The notes under the pieces are model-generated. The model made no database searches. It saw only the letters and a program-made list of their open reading frames with translations, and was not told where the DNA came from. A stretch of 64,000 nucleotides of DNA from Bacteroidetes bacterium RIFCSPLOWO2_12_FULL_37_12. GTDB lineage: Bacteria; Bacteroidota; Bacteroidia; 2-12-FULL-37-12. The position numbers were made by a program, and so were the translations under genes. Location of the stretch: contig MEPC01000038.1 in assembly GCA_001769655.1 (NCBI GenBank), positions 125,761 to 189,760 on the forward strand, in the 5' to 3' direction. Below, piece after piece: positions 1,750 to 12,402 of this stretch; within the stretch, counting starts at the first letter, position 1; every line of letters starts with the position of its first letter.

Positions 1750-1810
1750 ATAATTTAAAATTTGAATGAATATTTGATCCGAAATAAAAATGAGAACTAT
1801 CTGAATTCAG

Positions 1811-1859
1811 CCACGAATTTACACAAATTGCCTCAAACTTAATTCGTGTTAATTCGTGG
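1811..1859. repeat. AATTCGTGG hairpin repeat
   Basis: CCACGAATTTACACAAATT is followed at short range by AATTCGTGTTAATTCGTGG, so the two arms pair. Related sequences occur near 29370, 41946-42002 and 53702, always intergenic. It lies between the divergent alc and fadN; a variant -7 box (TACCTTTA, about 1871) follows it, just before fadN. Confidence 0.7.
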
Positions 1860-1883
1860 ATAAAATTTCATACCTTTACCCCA

Positions 1884-4283
1884 ATGTTTTCCATCAAAAA
1901 AGTTGCAGTCCTTGGTTCCGGTATTATGGGTTCCCGGATTGCCTGTCATTTCGCCAATGCAGGGTTAGAAGTTTTTCTTCTTGATATATGCCCCGCCGAA
2001 CTACTTGAAAATGAAAAAAAAGCCGGACTTACGCTGGAACATCCTACAGTAAAAAACCGCATCGTTAATCAATCACTTAAGACAGCGATTAATTCAAATC
2101 CATCCCCGCTTTATAAAAAAAGTTTTGCTTCCCACATTCATACCGGTAATTTTACTGATAATCTCAACGAGATTGAAAGTGTTGACTGGATACTGGAAGC
2201 CGTTGTGGAAAACCTGGAAATAAAAAATAAAATTTTTACGGAAGTGGAAAAGTACCGCAAACCGGGTACAATCATAACTTCAAATACTTCCGGTATTCCC
2301 ATCCGGCTGATGTCCCAAAACCGTTCGGAAGATTTTCAACGGCATTTTTGTGGCACTCATTTTTTCAATCCTCCACGCTACCTTCCTTTATTGGAAATTA
2401 TTCCGGGTCCAAACACGGATAGTAAACTTATTGAGTTCCTGATGCATTACGGTGATTTATTTCTCGGCAAGACGACCGTCCTATGCAAAGACACTCCCGC
2501 ATTTATTGCCAACCGTATCGGAATTTTCGCCATCATGGATATTTTTCACACCATGCAATCCATGGGATTGACGGTGGACGAAACCGATGCCTTAACCGGT
2601 TCTGTCGTAGGAAGACCTAAATCCGCCACTTGCAGAACTACCGATGTCGTAGGATTGGATACCATGGTAAAAGTAGCTGTTTTTTTACATGAAGGTCTGA
2701 AGCAGGATGAGTCAAAAGAAATTTTCAAACTACCGGAATTCGTTGCTAAATTAAACGATAACCGTTGGTGGGGAGATAAGACACGTCAGGGTTTTTATAA
2801 AAAAGTGAAAACAGAAATGGGTTCTGAAATTCTCACACTGAATCTTCAAACTTTTGAATACTCCCAAAAATCAAAAGTAAAGTTTGCCTCTCTGGATGCG
2901 ACAAAGGCATTGGAAAACACTGCCCAAAAAATAAAACTTCTCTATAACAGCAAGGATAAAGCAGGTGAATTTATACGTGGCACTTTTAATCGTTTATTCG
3001 TTTATGCCACGAACCGCATACCGGAAATCAGCGGTGAACTTTATAAAATTGACCTTGCCGTAAAAGCCGGTTTTGGCTGGGAATTTGGTCCTTTTGAAAC
3101 CTGGGATTTACTTGGAATTGAGAATGTTCTGAATAGCATGGAAACCCAGGGTTTAAAACCTGCGGGTTGGATAACCGAAATGCTTAATACCGGATGTAAA
3201 CGGTTTTATGAAGTGGAAAAAGGTAGAAAAAAATATTATGATATCGTTAGTAAATCCAATCAATTTATTCCGGGCAGTGAAAATTTTATTCTTTTAGATA
3301 ATTATAGAAAATCCAATATTGTTGACTCAAATTCAGATGCATCCTTATTTGATATTGGCGATGGGGTATTATGTCTGGAATTTCATACGAAGATGAATGC
3401 CATTGGAGGTGGAATTACAGAAATGTTGCATCGCTCCATTGACCGCGCAGAGAAGGATGGTTGGAAGGGATTGGTTATCGGAAATCAGGCACCGAATTTT
3501 TCCGCAGGAGCAAATCTTGCCTTGCTGTTAATGTATGCCATAGAGCAGGAATACGATGAGATTGACATGATGATCAGATTGTTTCAGAAAACCACGATGC
3601 GTCTTCGCTATTCAGATATTCCTGTAATAGTGGCACCGCATGGATTGACACTGGGTGGCGGCTGTGAAGTGTCACTGCATGCCGATGGATTGCAAGCCGC
3701 GGCTGAGACCTATATTGGATTAGTGGAATTCGGTGTAGGATTAATTCCCGGCGGTGGTGGCACTAAGGAAATGTGTCTTCGTGCTTCGGATGCCATTCAC
3801 GAAGGTGACATTGAATTAAATCCGTTGAAGAATAATTTTTTAATGATAGGGATGGCTAAGGTTGCTACGTCAGCTCATGAAGCGTTTGACATGGGAATAA
3901 TGAGAAGGGGTGACCGCATCAGTATGAATAATAAGAGGCAGCTAGCAGATGCTAAATTATTTGCTCTTGATTTATATAATGCAGGATATAGCCGTCCTCA
4001 AATCCGGAAGGATATTCATGTGCTAGGTCGCGGAGGGTTAGGTGCATTTCTTGCCGGGGCTTATGGAATGTTTGCGGGTCATTATATTTCGGAGCATGAT
4101 AAAAAAATTTCTACCAAGCTTGCATGGATAATGTGCGGGGGGGACCTCAGTGCACCTACAAAGGTCTCCGAACAATACCTATTGGATTTGGAGCGGGAAG
4201 CATTTTTGTCTCTTTGCGGGGAAAGAAAAACATTGGAGAGAATACAGCATACCTTGGCTACGGGGAAACCGCTGAGGAATTAA
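1884..4283 (+). CDS. fadN: FadN-type 3-hydroxyacyl-CoA dehydrogenase / enoyl-CoA hydratase fusion
   Basis: Bifunctional beta-oxidation enzyme, 799 aa. Domain order is dehydrogenase first, hydratase last, as in FadN and opposite to FadB/FadJ. The N-terminal NAD-binding fold starts VAVLGSGIMGSRIA. HFFNPPRYLPLLEIIPG lies near residue 160 and the dehydrogenase C-terminal domain follows. The crotonase domain covers about residues 500-700, with SAGANLALLL near 541 and GLTLGGGCEVSLHADG near 590 forming the oxyanion hole and CoA site. The ending LERIQHTLATGKPLRN is the normal family ending. The downstream partner would be a thiolase, but none is in the window. The gene is followed by glpK after 69 bp, suggesting combined use of fatty acids and glycerol from lipids. 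Confidence 0.93.
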   Translation: MFSIKKVAVLGSGIMGSRIACHFANAGLEVFLLDICPAELLENEKKAGLTLEHPTVKNRIVNQSLKTAINSNPSPLYKKSFASHIHTGNFTDNLNEIESVDWILEAVVENLEIKNKIFTEVEKYRKPGTIITSNTSGIPIRLMSQNRSEDFQRHFCGTHFFNPPRYLPLLEIIPGPNTDSKLIEFLMHYGDLFLGKTTVLCKDTPAFIANRIGIFAIMDIFHTMQSMGLTVDETDALTGSVVGRPKSATCRTTDVVGLDTMVKVAVFLHEGLKQDESKEIFKLPEFVAKLNDNRWWGDKTRQGFYKKVKTEMGSEILTLNLQTFEYSQKSKVKFASLDATKALENTAQKIKLLYNSKDKAGEFIRGTFNRLFVYATNRIPEISGELYKIDLAVKAGFGWEFGPFETWDLLGIENVLNSMETQGLKPAGWITEMLNTGCKRFYEVEKGRKKYYDIVSKSNQFIPGSENFILLDNYRKSNIVDSNSDASLFDIGDGVLCLEFHTKMNAIGGGITEMLHRSIDRAEKDGWKGLVIGNQAPNFSAGANLALLLMYAIEQEYDEIDMMIRLFQKTTMRLRYSDIPVIVAPHGLTLGGGCEVSLHADGLQAAAETYIGLVEFGVGLIPGGGGTKEMCLRASDAIHEGDIELNPLKNNFLMIGMAKVATSAHEAFDMGIMRRGDRISMNNKRQLADAKLFALDLYNAGYSRPQIRKDIHVLGRGGLGAFLAGAYGMFAGHYISEHDKKISTKLAWIMCGGDLSAPTKVSEQYLLDLEREAFLSLCGERKTLERIQHTLATGKPLRN

Positions 4284-4352: not shown

Positions 4353-5846
4353 ATGAAAAACAAATATATCATCGCCCTGGACCAGGGAACCACCAGCTCC
4401 CGTGCAATTCTCGTCAATTATAATTGCGAAATTGCAGGAATCGCTCAAAGAGAGTTTACACAGATATTTCCAAAACCCGGCTGGGTGGAACACAACCCTG
4501 AGGAAATATTCCAATCACAAATGGCTGTGTTAAATCAACTATTGCATGAAAAGAAAATTGCTCCTTCTGAAATCGCCGCTGTAGGTATCACCAACCAGCG
4601 AGAAACCACTGTGGTCTGGAATAAGAAAACGGGCTTACCTGTTTACAATGCCATCGTTTGGCAGGACCGCAGAACCGCACCTATATGCGAAGTGCTTAAA
4701 AAAAACAATCTGGAAAAATATGTAAAGAAAAATACCGGTCTCGTGATTGACGCTTATTTTTCAGGTACAAAAGTAAAATGGATATTGGATAATGTCAGTG
4801 GCACTCACAACCTTGCTAATAAAGGTGACCTTTTATTCGGAACCATTGATTCCTGGCTGATATGGAAGATGACTAAAGGGAAATGCCATGTCACTGATTA
4901 TTCTAACGCATCACGTACGATGTTGTATAACATTGTGGATTTGAAATGGGATAAGAAGATGCTTGATGCGCTCAACATCCCTGAGCAGATGCTACCGGAA
5001 GTTAAAAACTCATCGGGTTATTTCGGTTCCTTTGATTTGGATGGAGTGAATATTCCGATTACCGGGGTTGCCGGCGATCAGCAATCCGCACTTTTTGGTC
5101 AGACCTGTTTTGAAGAGGGTGAAGTAAAAAACACGTATGGCACCGGCTGCTTTATGCTGATGAACACCGGAGAACATATACAGCAAAGCAAATCCGGATT
5201 GCTATCAACGATTGCATGGGGACTGAATGGAAAGATAACGTACGCTCTGGAAGGTAGCGTGTTTATAGCCGGCGCCGCAATTCAATGGCTTCGTGATGGG
5301 TTAAAAATAATTGATACAGCAAGCGACTCAGAATACTTTGCGAATAAAACAGAAGATAACGGTGGCGTTTATGTAGTGCCAGCATTTGTAGGTCTTGGCG
5401 CTCCCTATTGGGATATGTATGCACGCGGTGCCATTTTCGGACTTACACGCGATACCACAAAGAACCACATTATAAGAGCTACACTGGAATCGCTCGCATA
5501 CCAGACAAAAGAAGTGCTTGATGCCATGCAAAAGAATTCCAATATTTCTCTGAAAAAATTAAAGGTTGACGGCGGTGCTTGTAGTAATAATCTGCTCATG
5601 CAGTTTCAGGCAGATATCCTCGGTGTCACTGTAGAACGACCTGCCATCGTTGAGTCCACTGCCCTCGGTGCCGCATATCTTGCAGGTATTGCATCCGGCT
5701 TATGGGATAAAAAGAAAATTTCAAAAAAACGAAAAGTAAATAAAATATTCCGCTCCTCTATGAATGATGAAAAAAGAAAACAACTTTTTTCCGAATGGCA
5801 GAAAGCAGTGACGCGGACGATGAGGTGGTTGGAAATTGGAAATTAG
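4353..5846 (+). CDS. glpK: Glycerol kinase
   Basis: Phosphorylates glycerol to sn-glycerol 3-phosphate with ATP. The 497-aa length matches the family. Visible motifs are the FGGY-kinase N-terminal phosphate loop [25 protein letters not shown] with IVWQDRRT, the mid-protein [12 protein letters not shown] near residue 262, and the C-terminal [20 protein letters not shown]. It is first in the glpK-glpD-glpF cluster. The last codons (ATT GGA AAT TAG) run into a GGAAATT/GGATATT repeat, so the natural C-terminal end has been set by the repeat; the enzyme's core is complete. Confidence 0.97.
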
Positions 5847-5882
5847 AAATTGGATATTGGATATTAGATATTGGATATTATC
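5825..5882. repeat. GGAAATT/GGATATT tandem repeat
   Basis: Short degenerate tandem units (TTGGAAATTGGAAATTAG, then GGATATT and AGATATT) run from the last codons of glpK into the glpK-glpD gap. The glpK stop codon TAG lies inside the repeat. Confidence 0.75.
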
Positions 5883-5936
5883 ATGTAAAATTTTTGCGAA
5901 CACCAACATCAAATATCAAAGTTATGTATTTTCACA

Positions 5937-7586
5937 ATGAATCTATTATCCTCCTTAAATCGCCCCTATCTACTGGAAAAATTAATTTCCTCAACGCATG
6001 ATCTGTTAATAATTGGTGGAGGAATTACGGGCGCCGGTATTGCATTAGATGCCGCTTCAAGGGGAATAAAGACATGTCTGATTGAAAAACAGGATTTTGC
6101 TTCGGGTACAAGTAGCCGTTCCACAAAACTTATCCACGGCGGATTGCGTTATCTTAAACAATTTGAATTTAATTTAGTCAGAGAGGTAGCCCATGAAAGG
6201 ACAACCACCTTCAACAATGCCCAGCATCTTGTTTTTCCTCAAAAGATGCTTTTACCTATACTGAAAAACGGTCCTTACGGAAAATTGTCTGCAACATTAG
6301 GACTTTGGATTTATGATTTTTTGGCTGGAATAAAAGAGCACGATTGGCGCTACAAGATACTTTCAAAAGAGGATACTGTGAATGAAGAACCGCTTCTGCG
6401 AAGGGACATCCTTAAAGGGAGCGGTTTATATATGGAATTCGGAACGGATGATGCGCGTCTTACCCTTGAGGTGATTAAAACAGCTGCAAGATATGGCGCT
6501 CTGCCGGCAAATTACCTCCGGTATAATAAATTTATTTACAAAAATAACTGCGTGTGCGGAGTGGAATGTGTTGACTTATTAACTGGGAAAATTTTAATTA
6601 TAAATGCAAATCAGGTAATCAATAGCACCGGTCCCTGGGTAGATGAGGTGCGCAGAAATGACCGCTTAATCACAGGCAAACGATTGCATCTCACAAAGGG
6701 CGCACATATTGTTGTCCGGCACATCAAACTGCCATTAAAATATTCCGTTTATTTTCCTGTCACCGGAGGTAGAATGGTTTTTGCAATTCCGCATGGTAAT
6801 GTAACCTATATCGGAACAACGGATACCAATTATACAGGCGATATGGAAACTCTGATTGCTTCAAAAGAAGATGCAACTTATCTTATCAATGCTGCAAATG
6901 AAATGTTTCCTTCCGTTACCTTGAAAATTTCAGATATTATTTCATCCTGGGCAGGAATACGCCCTTTGATACACGAGGAAGGGAAGACCCCATCGGATTT
7001 GCGGCGCAGGGATGAAATTTTTATCTCCGAAAGCGGACTGATTTCCATTGCCGGTGGTAAGCTTACCGGATACCGGAAAATGGCAGAAAAAATTGTAAAC
7101 ATTGTGAATAAAAACCTTATGAAGGTATCCGGAATTGCTTTTATCCATTGTAAAACAAGAGGAATAAAAATTAACGGTGGCGAATATACGAGTCAGCAGG
7201 AAGTCAATGAGCATATTAAAAAAATTTCTGAAAAAATAATAAGTGATGGCTTGGAAAATTCTTCCGCAAACTATTTAGTAAGAACTTATGGGAAACAATC
7301 GGATGAAATCTTGAACAAGTATTTTCTGATCTCCGGATCTGACTCCAAAATCCGTCTTGCAAAAGCACAATTGTGGTTTGCAGTAACTAATGAATCGGTT
7401 TATAAACTTCAGGATTTTTTTATCAGAAGAACCGGAATGTTTTTGTTTGAACCGGAATCGGTAAAAAAACTTTTACCCGCCATTGCAGAGGAAATGAAAA
7501 ATTATTTGCAGTGGGATACACAAAGGTGCGGCACTGAAATGGAAGAGATGGAAAATTTATTAAAAAAAATGGTTACTTTTGAATGA
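5937..7586 (+). CDS. glpD: Glycerol-3-phosphate dehydrogenase, FAD-dependent (aerobic type)
   Basis: Oxidises sn-glycerol 3-phosphate to dihydroxyacetone phosphate, passing electrons to the quinone pool at the inner face of the cytoplasmic membrane. The 549-aa protein has the FAD-binding Rossmann motif IIGGGITGAGIALDAASRG near residue 27, followed by the family signature GTSSRSTKLIHGGLRYLKQFEFNLVREVAHER. The substrate-domain element SISWAGIRPL-like (SSWAGIRPLIHEEGK) and ISIAGGKLTGYRKMAEK are present. The C-terminal helical domain is complete. It is the middle gene of the glp cluster, and its stop codon lies 13 bases before the preferred glpF start. Confidence 0.96.
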   Translation: MNLLSSLNRPYLLEKLISSTHDLLIIGGGITGAGIALDAASRGIKTCLIEKQDFASGTSSRSTKLIHGGLRYLKQFEFNLVREVAHERTTTFNNAQHLVFPQKMLLPILKNGPYGKLSATLGLWIYDFLAGIKEHDWRYKILSKEDTVNEEPLLRRDILKGSGLYMEFGTDDARLTLEVIKTAARYGALPANYLRYNKFIYKNNCVCGVECVDLLTGKILIINANQVINSTGPWVDEVRRNDRLITGKRLHLTKGAHIVVRHIKLPLKYSVYFPVTGGRMVFAIPHGNVTYIGTTDTNYTGDMETLIASKEDATYLINAANEMFPSVTLKISDIISSWAGIRPLIHEEGKTPSDLRRRDEIFISESGLISIAGGKLTGYRKMAEKIVNIVNKNLMKVSGIAFIHCKTRGIKINGGEYTSQQEVNEHIKKISEKIISDGLENSSANYLVRTYGKQSDEILNKYFLISGSDSKIRLAKAQLWFAVTNESVYKLQDFFIRRTGMFLFEPESVKKLLPAIAEEMKNYLQWDTQRCGTEMEEMENLLKKMVTFE

Positions 7587-8533: not shown

Positions 8534-8923
8534 CTAAAACAAGGAAAGCTGACTATCATCAGCTTTTGGTTGGTAAACTTTTACCTTAGTTTTTTTAATA
8601 GGATTATGCGCTTCATTTACTATTTCCTGCCGTTCCTTTGCTTTGGCGGTGAATGTCTCAATATCGGCAATGGCAAGTTCAATTTCACTCGGAACATCGG
8701 CAATATTATTTTCTGCTTTGTAAATACGCGCTTCAATTATTTGTGTGCGCCATATCTCAAGGAGTTCTAATGAGCCGGTATTTTTTGCTTTATCGGCAAG
8801 CTCCATTTGTATATGAACCAAATTAATCCTCTTTGCCAATTCTTTGTCAGATTTGGTTGCCAATATCTTCACGTATTTATCGTGGTTATCAATACAATCT
8901 TTTATGCGTATGGCTATGCTCAT
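8534..8923 (-). CDS. Unknown 129-aa helical protein ending in a beta-clamp-binding motif
   Basis: I do not recognise a named family. The 129-aa product is strongly helical over residues 1-100, charged, with no membrane segment. A basic, probably flexible tail (KKTKVKVYQPKADDS) ends exactly in QLSLF. QL(S/D)LF is the established consensus by which many bacterial proteins dock on the beta sliding clamp (DnaN), and extreme C-terminal placement is common for it. It is the third and last gene on the strand of the RM gene, after a 60-bp gap. A role in replication-linked modification or nuclease control is inference. Confidence 0.8.
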   Translation of the reverse strand: MSIAIRIKDCIDNHDKYVKILATKSDKELAKRINLVHIQMELADKAKNTGSLELLEIWRTQIIEARIYKAENNIADVPSEIELAIADIETFTAKAKERQEIVNEAHNPIKKTKVKVYQPKADDSQLSLF

Positions 8924-8983: not shown

Positions 8984-9631
8984 TTAACTATTTCTATTTG
9001 CCTTTTTTCTAATCTTATTTGCCACATCAATCTTGACAAAAGCCCCTTTTTTTTCATCGTAGTTGATATAATCAGGAAACATTTTTTTATCTGTGTTCCT
9101 TTCTTGAGTTTTAAGGTAAGTTAAAACTTTGTCAAGGGTTTCAGATGCTAATTTTTCACTGCCTTCTATTTGAACATTAATTCTTGTTTTCTCATCAAGA
9201 TTAACAGTTATTCCAAATTTTATTTTCTCATTAGCAATATGTGTTCGTGTATTAATCTTGTTCCATGTTTTCAGTATGACATATTTTAATATATCCCATA
9301 GTGCGTTCGATTTTACTTCATTGAGCAACTGGTAAATTTGATAGGAAATAACAAAAAATGTAGTTAGTGTATAATCATCTATTAAATTATAAATTATACC
9401 GGATTTGTTGTAGGAACTAAGCTGTAGATTTTCTTTTTTAAGAATTTCTTCTATTTCTTTCAGATCACTATCCTCTAATTGGTGACCTAAATAGGTTAAA
9501 TGAATAACATCTGCGCCTGATTTTAAGGTCTTACTTCTTTCCTCTAAAAGTTTTTCTTGTTCTTTATAAATATCACTATTCATAAATTCTTGTACAGTAT
9601 TAAGTAGCTCTTTTTTTGTTTCGCTCTTCAT
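8984..9631 (-). CDS. Unknown RM-associated protein, 215 aa
   Basis: No family recognised. The protein is soluble, helical in its first 60 residues (leucine- and glutamate-rich), and ends in a lysine-rich segment (KKGAFVKIDVANKIRKKANRNS) that could contact nucleic acid. It starts five bases after the stop of the 921-aa restriction-modification gene, so the two are almost surely co-transcribed and translationally linked. Accessory genes of unknown function are common beside type IIG and BREX-like methylases, but no specific role can be read here. The start MKSETKKELLN is the only reasonable one. Confidence 0.8.
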   Translation of the reverse strand: MKSETKKELLNTVQEFMNSDIYKEQEKLLEERSKTLKSGADVIHLTYLGHQLEDSDLKEIEEILKKENLQLSSYNKSGIIYNLIDDYTLTTFFVISYQIYQLLNEVKSNALWDILKYVILKTWNKINTRTHIANEKIKFGITVNLDEKTRINVQIEGSEKLASETLDKVLTYLKTQERNTDKKMFPDYINYDEKKGAFVKIDVANKIRKKANRNS

Positions 9632-9636
9632 TTTAT

Positions 9637-12402
9637 TTATTCCTCCACAATTTTAATTTCTTCTTTTGTTAAATTATATAATTCATAAACTAATTCGTTT
9701 ATTTTTTCTTCGCTGTGTTCTATGTGTTGTTTTATCTGCTCAATCTTATTCTGCAATTTTTCTTCTTTTAATTCTTCATTGAGTTTTAATAATAAATTAA
9801 CGTGTTTTGCAATTTCATTTTGACTTTTTTCATTCGTTATTGCAATTGGAAGTTGTTCTAATTGCCCCATCAGCACTTGTGGAAATCCTTGTGCGTTTGT
9901 TATAAGCCGTTTTGATAAATAGAATGAAAGTAATTTCGAATTAAGTAAGCCCAAAAGAAATTTTAAATTTATTTTTTCACTGCGAAGAATATAGATGGTG
10001 CTTTCAATCAGTTCTTGTTTTTCCGAATAAGTCACACATAAATTACTTCCAGTTCTGCGAATTAACAAACGAGGTATTGAAATATGTTTATCTAAATCTC
10101 TTGTTCCTCCAATAATATCTAACTTTTCATATTCAGCATACTTATCATAATGATAATAATATCGGGTCATGCAATTACCTAATAGAAACGGGAGAGATTT
10201 TTTTGATAGTGATTTAGTAAGAATATCATTTCTATCTTTTACGACCATTCCCTTTGACATTTCAACTAATTCTCCCATTAACTTAGATGAATTCAGAATT
10301 TTCTTAAAAAGAGTTTTGCTGGTATTATCTAAAGAAACATCCCATGGGTCAGTGCCTTTGTTCAATTTTATTTCTTGACTAATACTTTGATTTTGGGAAT
10401 CATGAATTTTAACAATTTTTGTTTTTTCTTTTGATTCTTTTTCTCCAACAACGATTGTTGTTCCTATCGTTGCGTCCTGAAATACAAAGTGGTCAAAAAT
10501 TACTACCGAATTAATATTGAAGTTCTCTAAAAGAATTTCTCTGATTTTTCCGTTACTCTCCGTTGTAAGCAAAGCTTCTGGAATGATAAACGAAAATATT
10601 TTTGGATCTAAATGAGTAACTCTTTCTAAGAATAATTGAAATAAATTTTTTGAACTTCCTCCCGAATAAGATTTATATTTCTTTTCGTAGTAAGATAGTA
10701 TTTCGCCATCAATATTATTGGCTGTAAGTTTTAAATAGGGCGGATTCCCAATCACTACATCAAAACCACCCTGCTTAAATACATCTTGAAATCCATTCTT
10801 CCAGCTGAACGGTTTAATTTTTTTCTCAAACCCTAACTCCATTTCGCTGTCATAAATATCTGTATCAACTAAACTATTACCAACTTTAATATTATAATCA
10901 AGATCTGGTAGAACTCTTTCACGAAATAAGCTCATCTGTTGATTAATGCTGGCTTCGGTTTCGCCTTCCATACATTTGAGGAGCAAACCGAGTTTGGTTA
11001 CTTCAACTGCGTTAGCGTCAATGTCAACTCCAAAAATATTGCTGAGAAGTATGCGTTTCTTTTCGTGTGTTGTTAAAGTTCCCTGAGGAGTGAAGGGATT
11101 ATCTTTTTCTTTTTTAGTTGCGTAACCTTTATGGTGATACCAGTTAATGTGATAGTTCAATAAATATTCAAACGCGCCCAACAAAAAAGAACCACTTCCG
11201 CAAGCGGGGTCAACAATTTTTATCTTCTCAATTTCCTTTGGGGATTTTCCGTCAACGAGTTTTCCAACAGTATTTTTTACAATGTATTCAACTATGTATT
11301 GAGGCGTGTAATAAACTCCACCCGCTTTACGCACTTCGGGCTTTTCTTCAATCCGTACACTTCGCGCGGGCGTAATACGAATTACCTTTCCAAGAAACTG
11401 CTCGTAGGCGTTTCCGAGAACTTCTACGGGCATTACGGAAAATTCGTACCGGCAGATTGGAGAATAAAGGTCTTCAATTATTGATTTGATTACTTTATTA
11501 TCAACCTTAAGATGAGGAGTAATTAAATCTTTCTTGAAATCGAAAAGTCCTGAATTGTATTTATCATCTGCAAGTTTGAAAAGATGAAAAAGATTTTGAT
11601 AGGCATTTCCTTTTGAGGCCTCTTTTTGCAACTGTGCATAAGGTTCTACCGCTCGGTCTTCGCAGAAGCGCAGGAAAATCAGTCGGTCAATGGTTTGCTG
11701 AACAGCAAAATTTATTTCTTCGTCATTTAATTTTCGGTTGTTGTGCGCAATGCTTACGGCAAGGTATCTGCGCCATTCATCTAAACTCTGAACAAATTCT
11801 TTATCGAGCGTTTGGCTTCCTTTTTTATTAGTATCGCTTTGTACATACTTGTCGAACTTGCCATGCGTAACTGCTTCGTGCGAAAAGGTGTCGTAAATAA
11901 AATCAAACTCATCAAGATATTTTTCAAAGTGAATGTGCTTTAGTTTTGCAACGCTCGCGCTGTCGTGCAGATTTGGAACGCGCGAACAATCGTAAACAAT
12001 AAAATCTTCAAAGTTTGTGAGAATGGAAATATATGCCTGCGCACTGCTTCCGTAACGCCTCAACTGATAGGCGGATTCTTTATTTGCTTTGAGTGAAACG
12101 GATGGCTTTTTTGCTTCTACATAAAACAATCTTTTCTTCGCGCTTCCTGAAAGCCGAAATCCGTAGTCGGGCGCTTTTGCTTTTCCTTTAACTACAACTT
12201 TATCTTCATAAATTACTTCGCGGTATGCTTCGCTGTCGCCTTTCTCGTTGTCAATGTCCCATCCCAGTGCCTTGAAAAACGGATTGATGAAATCCTGACG
12301 GGTTTTTGCTTCGTTGTAATCGGGCAAATGATAGTCGTTCTGATGCTCTCGGAAGCGTTCAACTAACTTTTCTATGGTGGCTTTCGCCAGGTCTCTGGTC
12401 AT
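9637..12402 (-). CDS. Type IIG-like restriction-modification enzyme (nuclease + N6-adenine methylase)
   Basis: A single 921-aa chain combines cleavage and methylation. Residues about 30-140 carry an HsdR-N-like PD-(D/E)xK nuclease fold: PD at 78-79 and FYVEAKKP with E96/K98. Residues about 360-560 are an N6-adenine methylase: VYYTPQYIVEYIV, SAM-binding motif I DPACGSGSFLLGAFE at about 398-410, and catalytic motif IV IGNPPYLKL at 552-559. The C-terminal third resembles a TaqI-like specificity domain (LLGLLNSKLLSFYL...QLEQLPI) followed by a coiled coil. The layout is typical of Eco57I/type IIG enzymes and of methylase-nuclease defence proteins. It heads a three-gene operon with a strong -7 box upstream and interrupts a lipid-catabolic neighbourhood. 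Confidence 0.9.
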   Translation of the reverse strand: MTRDLAKATIEKLVERFREHQNDYHLPDYNEAKTRQDFINPFFKALGWDIDNEKGDSEAYREVIYEDKVVVKGKAKAPDYGFRLSGSAKKRLFYVEAKKPSVSLKANKESAYQLRRYGSSAQAYISILTNFEDFIVYDCSRVPNLHDSASVAKLKHIHFEKYLDEFDFIYDTFSHEAVTHGKFDKYVQSDTNKKGSQTLDKEFVQSLDEWRRYLAVSIAHNNRKLNDEEINFAVQQTIDRLIFLRFCEDRAVEPYAQLQKEASKGNAYQNLFHLFKLADDKYNSGLFDFKKDLITPHLKVDNKVIKSIIEDLYSPICRYEFSVMPVEVLGNAYEQFLGKVIRITPARSVRIEEKPEVRKAGGVYYTPQYIVEYIVKNTVGKLVDGKSPKEIEKIKIVDPACGSGSFLLGAFEYLLNYHINWYHHKGYATKKEKDNPFTPQGTLTTHEKKRILLSNIFGVDIDANAVEVTKLGLLLKCMEGETEASINQQMSLFRERVLPDLDYNIKVGNSLVDTDIYDSEMELGFEKKIKPFSWKNGFQDVFKQGGFDVVIGNPPYLKLTANNIDGEILSYYEKKYKSYSGGSSKNLFQLFLERVTHLDPKIFSFIIPEALLTTESNGKIREILLENFNINSVVIFDHFVFQDATIGTTIVVGEKESKEKTKIVKIHDSQNQSISQEIKLNKGTDPWDVSLDNTSKTLFKKILNSSKLMGELVEMSKGMVVKDRNDILTKSLSKKSLPFLLGNCMTRYYYHYDKYAEYEKLDIIGGTRDLDKHISIPRLLIRRTGSNLCVTYSEKQELIESTIYILRSEKINLKFLLGLLNSKLLSFYLSKRLITNAQGFPQVLMGQLEQLPIAITNEKSQNEIAKHVNLLLKLNEELKEEKLQNKIEQIKQHIEHSEEKINELVYELYNLTKEEIKIVEE

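Follow-up and report, generated by a model that had tools for sequence, protein, structure and literature searches.

The window, a 64,000-nucleotide stretch of a Bacteroidetes genome, contains an operon of three genes, all transcribed from the minus strand. The first gene encodes a type IIG restriction-modification enzyme of 921 amino acids (aa; positions 9637-12402). A 215-aa gene (8984-9631) starts 5 bases past the IIG gene and a 129-aa gene (8534-8923, ATG start) another 60 bases on; the plus strand of 8534-8923 contains no open reading frame (ORF). The 129-aa protein ends in ...KVYQPKADDSQLSLF followed by the stop codon, its last residues being ADDSQLSLF, with the QLSLF codons (residues 125-129) at 8537-8551. 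The first-pass annotation had placed this protein downstream of a type IIG-like enzyme and had read its C-terminus as a docking peptide for the DnaN sliding clamp. Both statements hold: the two genes run in the same direction, the IIG enzyme is intact, a single gene separates them, and the peptide, which equals QL[S/D]LF, is real and conserved.

The product of 9637-12402 carries a nuclease, an adenine methylase and a target-recognition domain in one chain with intact catalytic motifs, which is what defines a type IIG enzyme. It matches the Pfam families Eco57I, N6_Mtase, TaqI_C and HSDR_N, and its best PADLOC match is REase_MTase_IIG (PDLC03604, 3.4e-181). The nuclease motif, PD-x(n)-EAK (residues 78-98; 12109-12171), is kept in 15 of 15 aligned members of the clade described below, and P78, D79, E96 and K98 are invariant in a 22-row alignment. 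Methylase motifs I (DPACGSGSF, residues 398-406; 11185-11211) and IV (NPPY, residues 553-556; 10735-10746) are intact, and the TaqI_C target-recognition domain spans residues 738-853 (9844-10191). A reading of the enzyme as the BREX protein PglX was rejected, as the PglX model scores 119 bits against a cut-off of 500 and the other two ORFs of the operon belong to no BREX family. The enzyme also contains an internal QMSLF (residues 489-493; 10924-10938, minus strand). This was not counted as a second clamp motif: a Q[LMIT]x[LMV]F sequence is semi-conserved at this place in many related IIGs, whether or not they have the partner, and it lies in a low-confidence part of the structural model. Its role is probably structural.

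The 129-aa protein matches nothing above threshold in Pfam, NCBIfam, PADLOC or PHROGs. A PDDEXK_2 (Rpn) nuclease identity was considered and discarded, the score being 16.7 bits against a Pfam gathering cut-off of 27.4 and the hit appearing in only one of ten homologues. A PDB sequence search returned no match, and no PDB or viral fold matched at E≤0.001. The AlphaFold model shows a core of five helices in residues 1-105 (8609-8923), at positions 3-12, 14-22, 26-45, 49-71 and 80-105, with pLDDT values of 85-91 for residues 1-70 and 57-70 for residues 71-100. The remainder, residues 106-129 (8537-8608), has pLDDT below 50 and is predicted to be disordered. This tail differs in length between homologues and is divergent save for the motif, with a mean pairwise identity of 32% over residues 106-124 versus 51% for the core. 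The clamp motif is thus predicted to sit in an accessible, unstructured stretch at the extreme C-terminus, and a helical core with a flexible tail bearing a docking peptide is, as far as the model goes, the anatomy of an adaptor.

Homologues of the 129-aa protein were collected from a scan of genome contigs, which gave nine loci with 48-79% identity, and from 395 genomes of the class searched with a profile, 18 of which gave a match. The same profile run on a phylum-wide draw of 396 genomes found none except the window's own. Phages, plasmids and viral contigs yielded no homologue either, which disfavours an origin as a phage gene. A 92-aa gene beside another locus (L134) was tested as a distant relative and rejected. 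The copies picked as full-length (22, with 29-84% identity to the window copy) were aligned. Residues Q1, L4 and F5 of the motif are invariant in all of them, while position 2 is L, M, F or T. Experiments established QL[S/D]LF as the clamp-binding consensus, with positions 1, 4 and 5 mattering most (PMC12309361); the window's QLSLF equals this consensus, and those three positions are the ones invariant among the homologues. The copies left out of the alignment fall into two sorts: L072 and L078 are damaged and still encode QLSLF past a frameshift or stop, and L073 (decayed), L076 and L077 (short, the whole tail missing) lack the motif.

On the scale of the genome, the DNA pattern for QLxLF followed by a stop occurs 48 times, versus 45 for a reversed-pattern control. 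Among the matches read, all save one at a contig edge, only the window's ends an ORF of at least 60 aa. The related loci contain 343 distinct complete ORFs of at least 100 aa; a Q..[LMI]F ending occurs in 24, namely 22 members of the partner family and two PDC-M19B proteins (see below). Because the window's match is the sole one of those read to end an ORF of at least 60 aa, because such endings are rare among the ORFs of related loci and because Q1, L4 and F5 never vary, we take the QLSLF ending, judged at the sequence level, to be more than chance.

A maximum-likelihood tree of 55 IIG proteins was built on the nuclease and the initial half of the methylase. All 17 members of one clade (support 100/100) have the partner gene, and the 38 IIGs outside it all lack one. 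Its presence requires one change on this tree, against 14.8 when the labels are shuffled. Conservation of the motif beside restriction genes, on which the first-pass annotation had made its idea depend, is borne out: the motif is present in each of the 16 intact clade members, and in the 17th it is still encoded beyond a frameshift. At seven loci (L005, L008, L009, L012, L063, L067 and L075) the partner and IIG genes adjoin or overlap, the arrangement one would expect of translationally coupled genes. At the other loci (the window, L006, L007, L010, L011, L062, L064, L065, L068 and L069) the two are separated by one to three unrelated genes, including DUF559 nuclease-like, PDDEXK_3, AbiU2-like, RES and Bro-N genes, a REP-type transposase (named by eye) and others without a family. 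The window's own insert in this slot, the 215-aa gene, behaves as variable cargo; it matches no family in Pfam, NCBIfam or PADLOC, and a plasmid search gave no homologue of its product. The partner is retained in spite of these insertions. A search for IIG proteins with the partner fused to them, among chains of up to 1182 aa, found none.

Sequence divergence of the partner follows that of the IIG nuclease (r 0.80) and methylase (r 0.75; both p ~0.0005) and is uncorrelated with that of the target-recognition domain (r -0.04); such co-divergence is evidence of co-inheritance, not of contact. The recognition domain is the part that the IIGs of the clade exchange. Median pairwise identity within the clade is 26% for this domain, versus 74% for the nuclease, 63% for the methylase and 71% for the C-terminal helices. 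The window enzyme and that of L065 are 92% identical over residues 700-860 (9823-10305 in the window) and 70% in the nuclease part; for L062 the pattern is inverted, with 23% and 96%, respectively. Read from these alignments, target-recognition domains are swapped within the clade. Since the partner's divergence tracks nuclease and methylase and not the recognition domain, the partner goes with the catalytic body, whatever sequence is recognised.

The same genome encodes a second IIG (locus L136), which falls outside the clade and has no clamp-motif partner. As IIGs outside the clade, this one included, manage without the partner, clamp tethering is not a general requirement of such enzymes. 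Two genes downstream of the second IIG lies a gene for a motif-less 125-aa protein (2114-2491 of that locus, minus strand) that resembles the first ~60 residues of the partner core; this one weak match scores 26.6 bits, versus 10.4 for the best of 5000 shuffles. It is the one exception, a remote one, to the rule that relatives of the partner encoded near a IIG keep the motif. Judging from this resemblance, the core could be the older part, already associated with IIGs, and the tail an addition in one clade.

How do the enzymes of this clade mark DNA? A regular-expression scan for ORFs with methylase motifs I and IV recognised no second methylase in the flanks of the clade loci or in the first 25 kb of the window. 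Relatives of this design, with a single recognition domain and a lone methylase, mark one strand only. With a single methylase and a single target-recognition domain per enzyme, and no further methylase recognised close by, the clade IIGs probably modify just one of the two strands at an asymmetric site. If so, each round of replication would leave one daughter duplex wholly unmarked. The problem has been recognised in a review: enzymes that mark one strand only would fail to distinguish newly replicated host DNA from phage DNA, and the pairing of sites head to head has been proposed as a solution (PMC3874165). Clamp tethering would be a second solution.

Altogether, these observations suggest a form of restriction confined to one clade, in which a small partner with a clamp-docking tail ties the defence enzyme to freshly copied DNA. 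The helical core would hold the IIG enzyme, or the IIG-DNA complex, and the QLSLF of the disordered tail would dock in the hydrophobic pocket of DnaN. Sliding clamps are loaded at forks and stay on freshly made DNA; a IIG tethered to them would hence be concentrated on newborn duplexes, and its methylase could re-mark the daughter duplex before the nuclease in the same chain cuts it. The genome encodes an ordinary DnaN, as well as a Y-family polymerase with QKNLF and a DnaE with QKHFNLF, peptides that are motif-like and less canonical than the partner's. The elements of this scheme differ in strength. From its sequence, the tail very probably binds DnaN. Physical coupling of the 129-aa protein to the IIG enzyme is a reasonably good bet, and there is about an even chance that the arrangement serves to methylate newborn DNA. 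Methylation after replication is favoured here over cleavage limited to the fork because no second methylase was recognised, there is a single recognition domain and the relatives mark one strand. The composite proposition, that the 129-aa protein is a dedicated clamp-docking adaptor of one IIG clade serving re-methylation before cutting, we hold to be evenly poised between right and wrong.

The same parts could be put to the opposite use. The partner might bring the nuclease to the forks of replicating phages or plasmids that borrow the host's DnaN, so that cleavage is coupled to replication. The anatomy would be identical to that of an adaptor for methylation, the nuclease motif is intact in every clade member tested, and swapping of the target-recognition domains is as expected for a defence enzyme. 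Host forks, however, carry the same clamps and, with an enzyme that marks one strand, unmarked sites as well; a nuclease brought there would be dangerous unless methylation always won. On balance we regard clamp-guided cleavage as unlikely, though it is the strongest of the competing accounts.

Nearly on a par with it, and a shade less probable, is the idea that the small protein is a repair or replication factor with a DnaN-dependent job of its own, merely carried along with the IIG gene. It draws on four motif-bearing copies for which no IIG was seen: L066 (QLTLF), L070 (QLGLF), L071 (QFDLF) and L074 (QTSLF). The L066 copy is on a 3.5-kb contig of a genome that is 67% complete; the genomes of the other three have no IIG match at 1e-100. 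Three of the four peptides (QLGLF, QFDLF and QTSLF) are less canonical. Against an independent job stand the clade-exact link to one IIG lineage, the overlapping genes and the co-divergence, and also the fact that the motif-less copies (L073, L076 and L077) likewise have no IIG alongside. The protein tree of the partner itself has few resolved branches, and no argument for lateral transfer was drawn from it. The orphan copies have varied neighbours: a Schlafen-type helicase at L070, an AbiU2-like protein at L071 and metK at L074. The L070 neighbour (4771-7014 of that locus, minus strand) is a 747-aa protein with Schlafen-group-3 helicase, GIY-YIG-like and peptidase-S24-like domains, and is plausibly a defence gene itself.

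Improbable, in our estimate, is a clamp-blocking toxin or fork brake that would halt replication should the restriction system fail or be lost. Such an activity has precedent in SocB and RipA, two toxins that act on the pocket of the sliding clamp (PMC12795458), and the gene is small and operon-linked. By description, SocB and RipA are also encoded beside a partner and act on the hydrophobic pocket. Yet they are replication-blocking toxins paired with antitoxins, whereas the gene in the window has a restriction enzyme for its partner, and some genomes keep such a gene by itself; these orphan copies persist without a IIG or an obvious antitoxin, and the motif end resembles an ordinary docking peptide.

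Two further accounts of the motif do without DnaN and have very little in their favour. In one, the acidic tail and terminal Phe mimic the C-terminal tip of SSB and bind SSB partners instead. Several tails do read DDDSQLSLF or DDSQLSLF, which places a hydrophobic end with a final Phe behind acidic residues. An invariant Gln is not a component of the SSB tip, whereas the Gln never varies here; L012 and L067 have few acids ahead of the motif; and L007 (LFE) and L075 (LFDES) extend past the Phe, which led us to reject a mimic of the acidic run and terminal hydrophobic dipeptide with its free carboxylate. In the other, the peptide is a by-product without a binding role, for example of a terminator overlapping the last codons, as does the terminator-like hairpin found in the window at 8545-8566 (minus strand; AAAGCTGATGATAGTCAGCTTT plus a T-rich tail), which covers part of the motif; this too was rejected, since the motif codons vary synonymously among homologues while the peptide is kept (Q, L and F in 22 of 22 full-length copies) and the background of the motif in neighbouring ORFs is near zero.

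To return to the adaptor for methylation, its components are familiar and their combination is not. The enzyme resembles type IIG/IIL enzymes of the Eco57I and MmeI families, in which one polypeptide holds a PD-(D/E)xK nuclease, a gamma-class adenine methylase and a C-terminal target-recognition domain. Eco57I depends on a second methylase (PMC3874165); no companion methylase was recognised near the window IIG, in which it is like the MmeI-type systems. No type IIG/IIL enzyme described in the open papers searched comes with a separate subunit whose tail would dock on DnaN, as is proposed for the window system. The 129-aa protein carries a QLSLF-type peptide at its extreme C-terminus, as do PolC and several transposases: Bacillus subtilis PolC has exactly QLSLF (PMC12309361) and many transposases end in QLxLF (PMC4549789). 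In those proteins the motif is on the enzyme itself, whereas here a restriction enzyme's small partner, to all appearances not an enzyme itself, carries it. The first-pass annotation knew of no type IIG system with a clamp-docking subunit, and this survived a search of the open literature, which turned up clamp motifs in polymerases, transposases and repair proteins, toxins directed at the clamp, and plasmid methylases whose partner is polymerase I, and described no restriction-modification enzyme so equipped. What the window presents is therefore a type IIG system whose clade-specific partner, bearing a clamp motif, has no precedent in these papers.

The nearest parallels come from methyltransferases. 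For the plasmid enzymes M.EcoGIX and M.BceJIII, action at the fork through a replication protein has been proposed, and they co-immunoprecipitated with DNA polymerase I (PMC7736820). They resemble the adaptor proposed here in that a methyltransferase is brought to the fork through a replication protein; they differ in being single-strand-specific, in having no nuclease and in their partner, PolI, the clamp being merely a suggested intermediary. In eukaryotes, DNMT1 is tied to the sliding clamp PCNA and restores marks on newly replicated DNA. The proteins are unrelated, and DNMT1 has no nuclease and acts on hemimethylated CpG rather than on wholly unmarked sites. Tentatively, and at somewhat less than an even chance, we propose that a dedicated clamp adaptor sends a one-strand IIG to newborn DNA, where the unmarked daughter would be re-marked before the enzyme's own nuclease cuts, making the system a bacterial counterpart, on the side of defence, of clamp-coupled maintenance methylation.

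A clamp-type motif likewise ends the proteins of a separate family, PDC-M19B, which PADLOC lists as a defence candidate and which is paired with a DUF488 protein (1805-2632, minus strand, in L137; 12349-13161, plus strand, in L076; also L152, L153 and L155). The endings are QQSLF and QTKLF in Bacteroidota, EQLSLF on two cyanobacterial plasmids and a partial FQLF in Streptomyces; the copies read from Rhizobium and Sulfolobus lack a clamp-type motif. Because several PDC-M19B copies also end in QLSLF or QxxLF, clamp docking may have been recruited into phage defence more than once. For the system in the window, the sister IIG without a partner in the same genome offers a built-in comparison. To our knowledge, no other restriction system is wired to the replisome, and this one would be the first. 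If true, it would provide a concrete, testable answer to the one-strand puzzle, namely that of a wholly unmarked daughter duplex that resembles phage DNA (PMC3874165).
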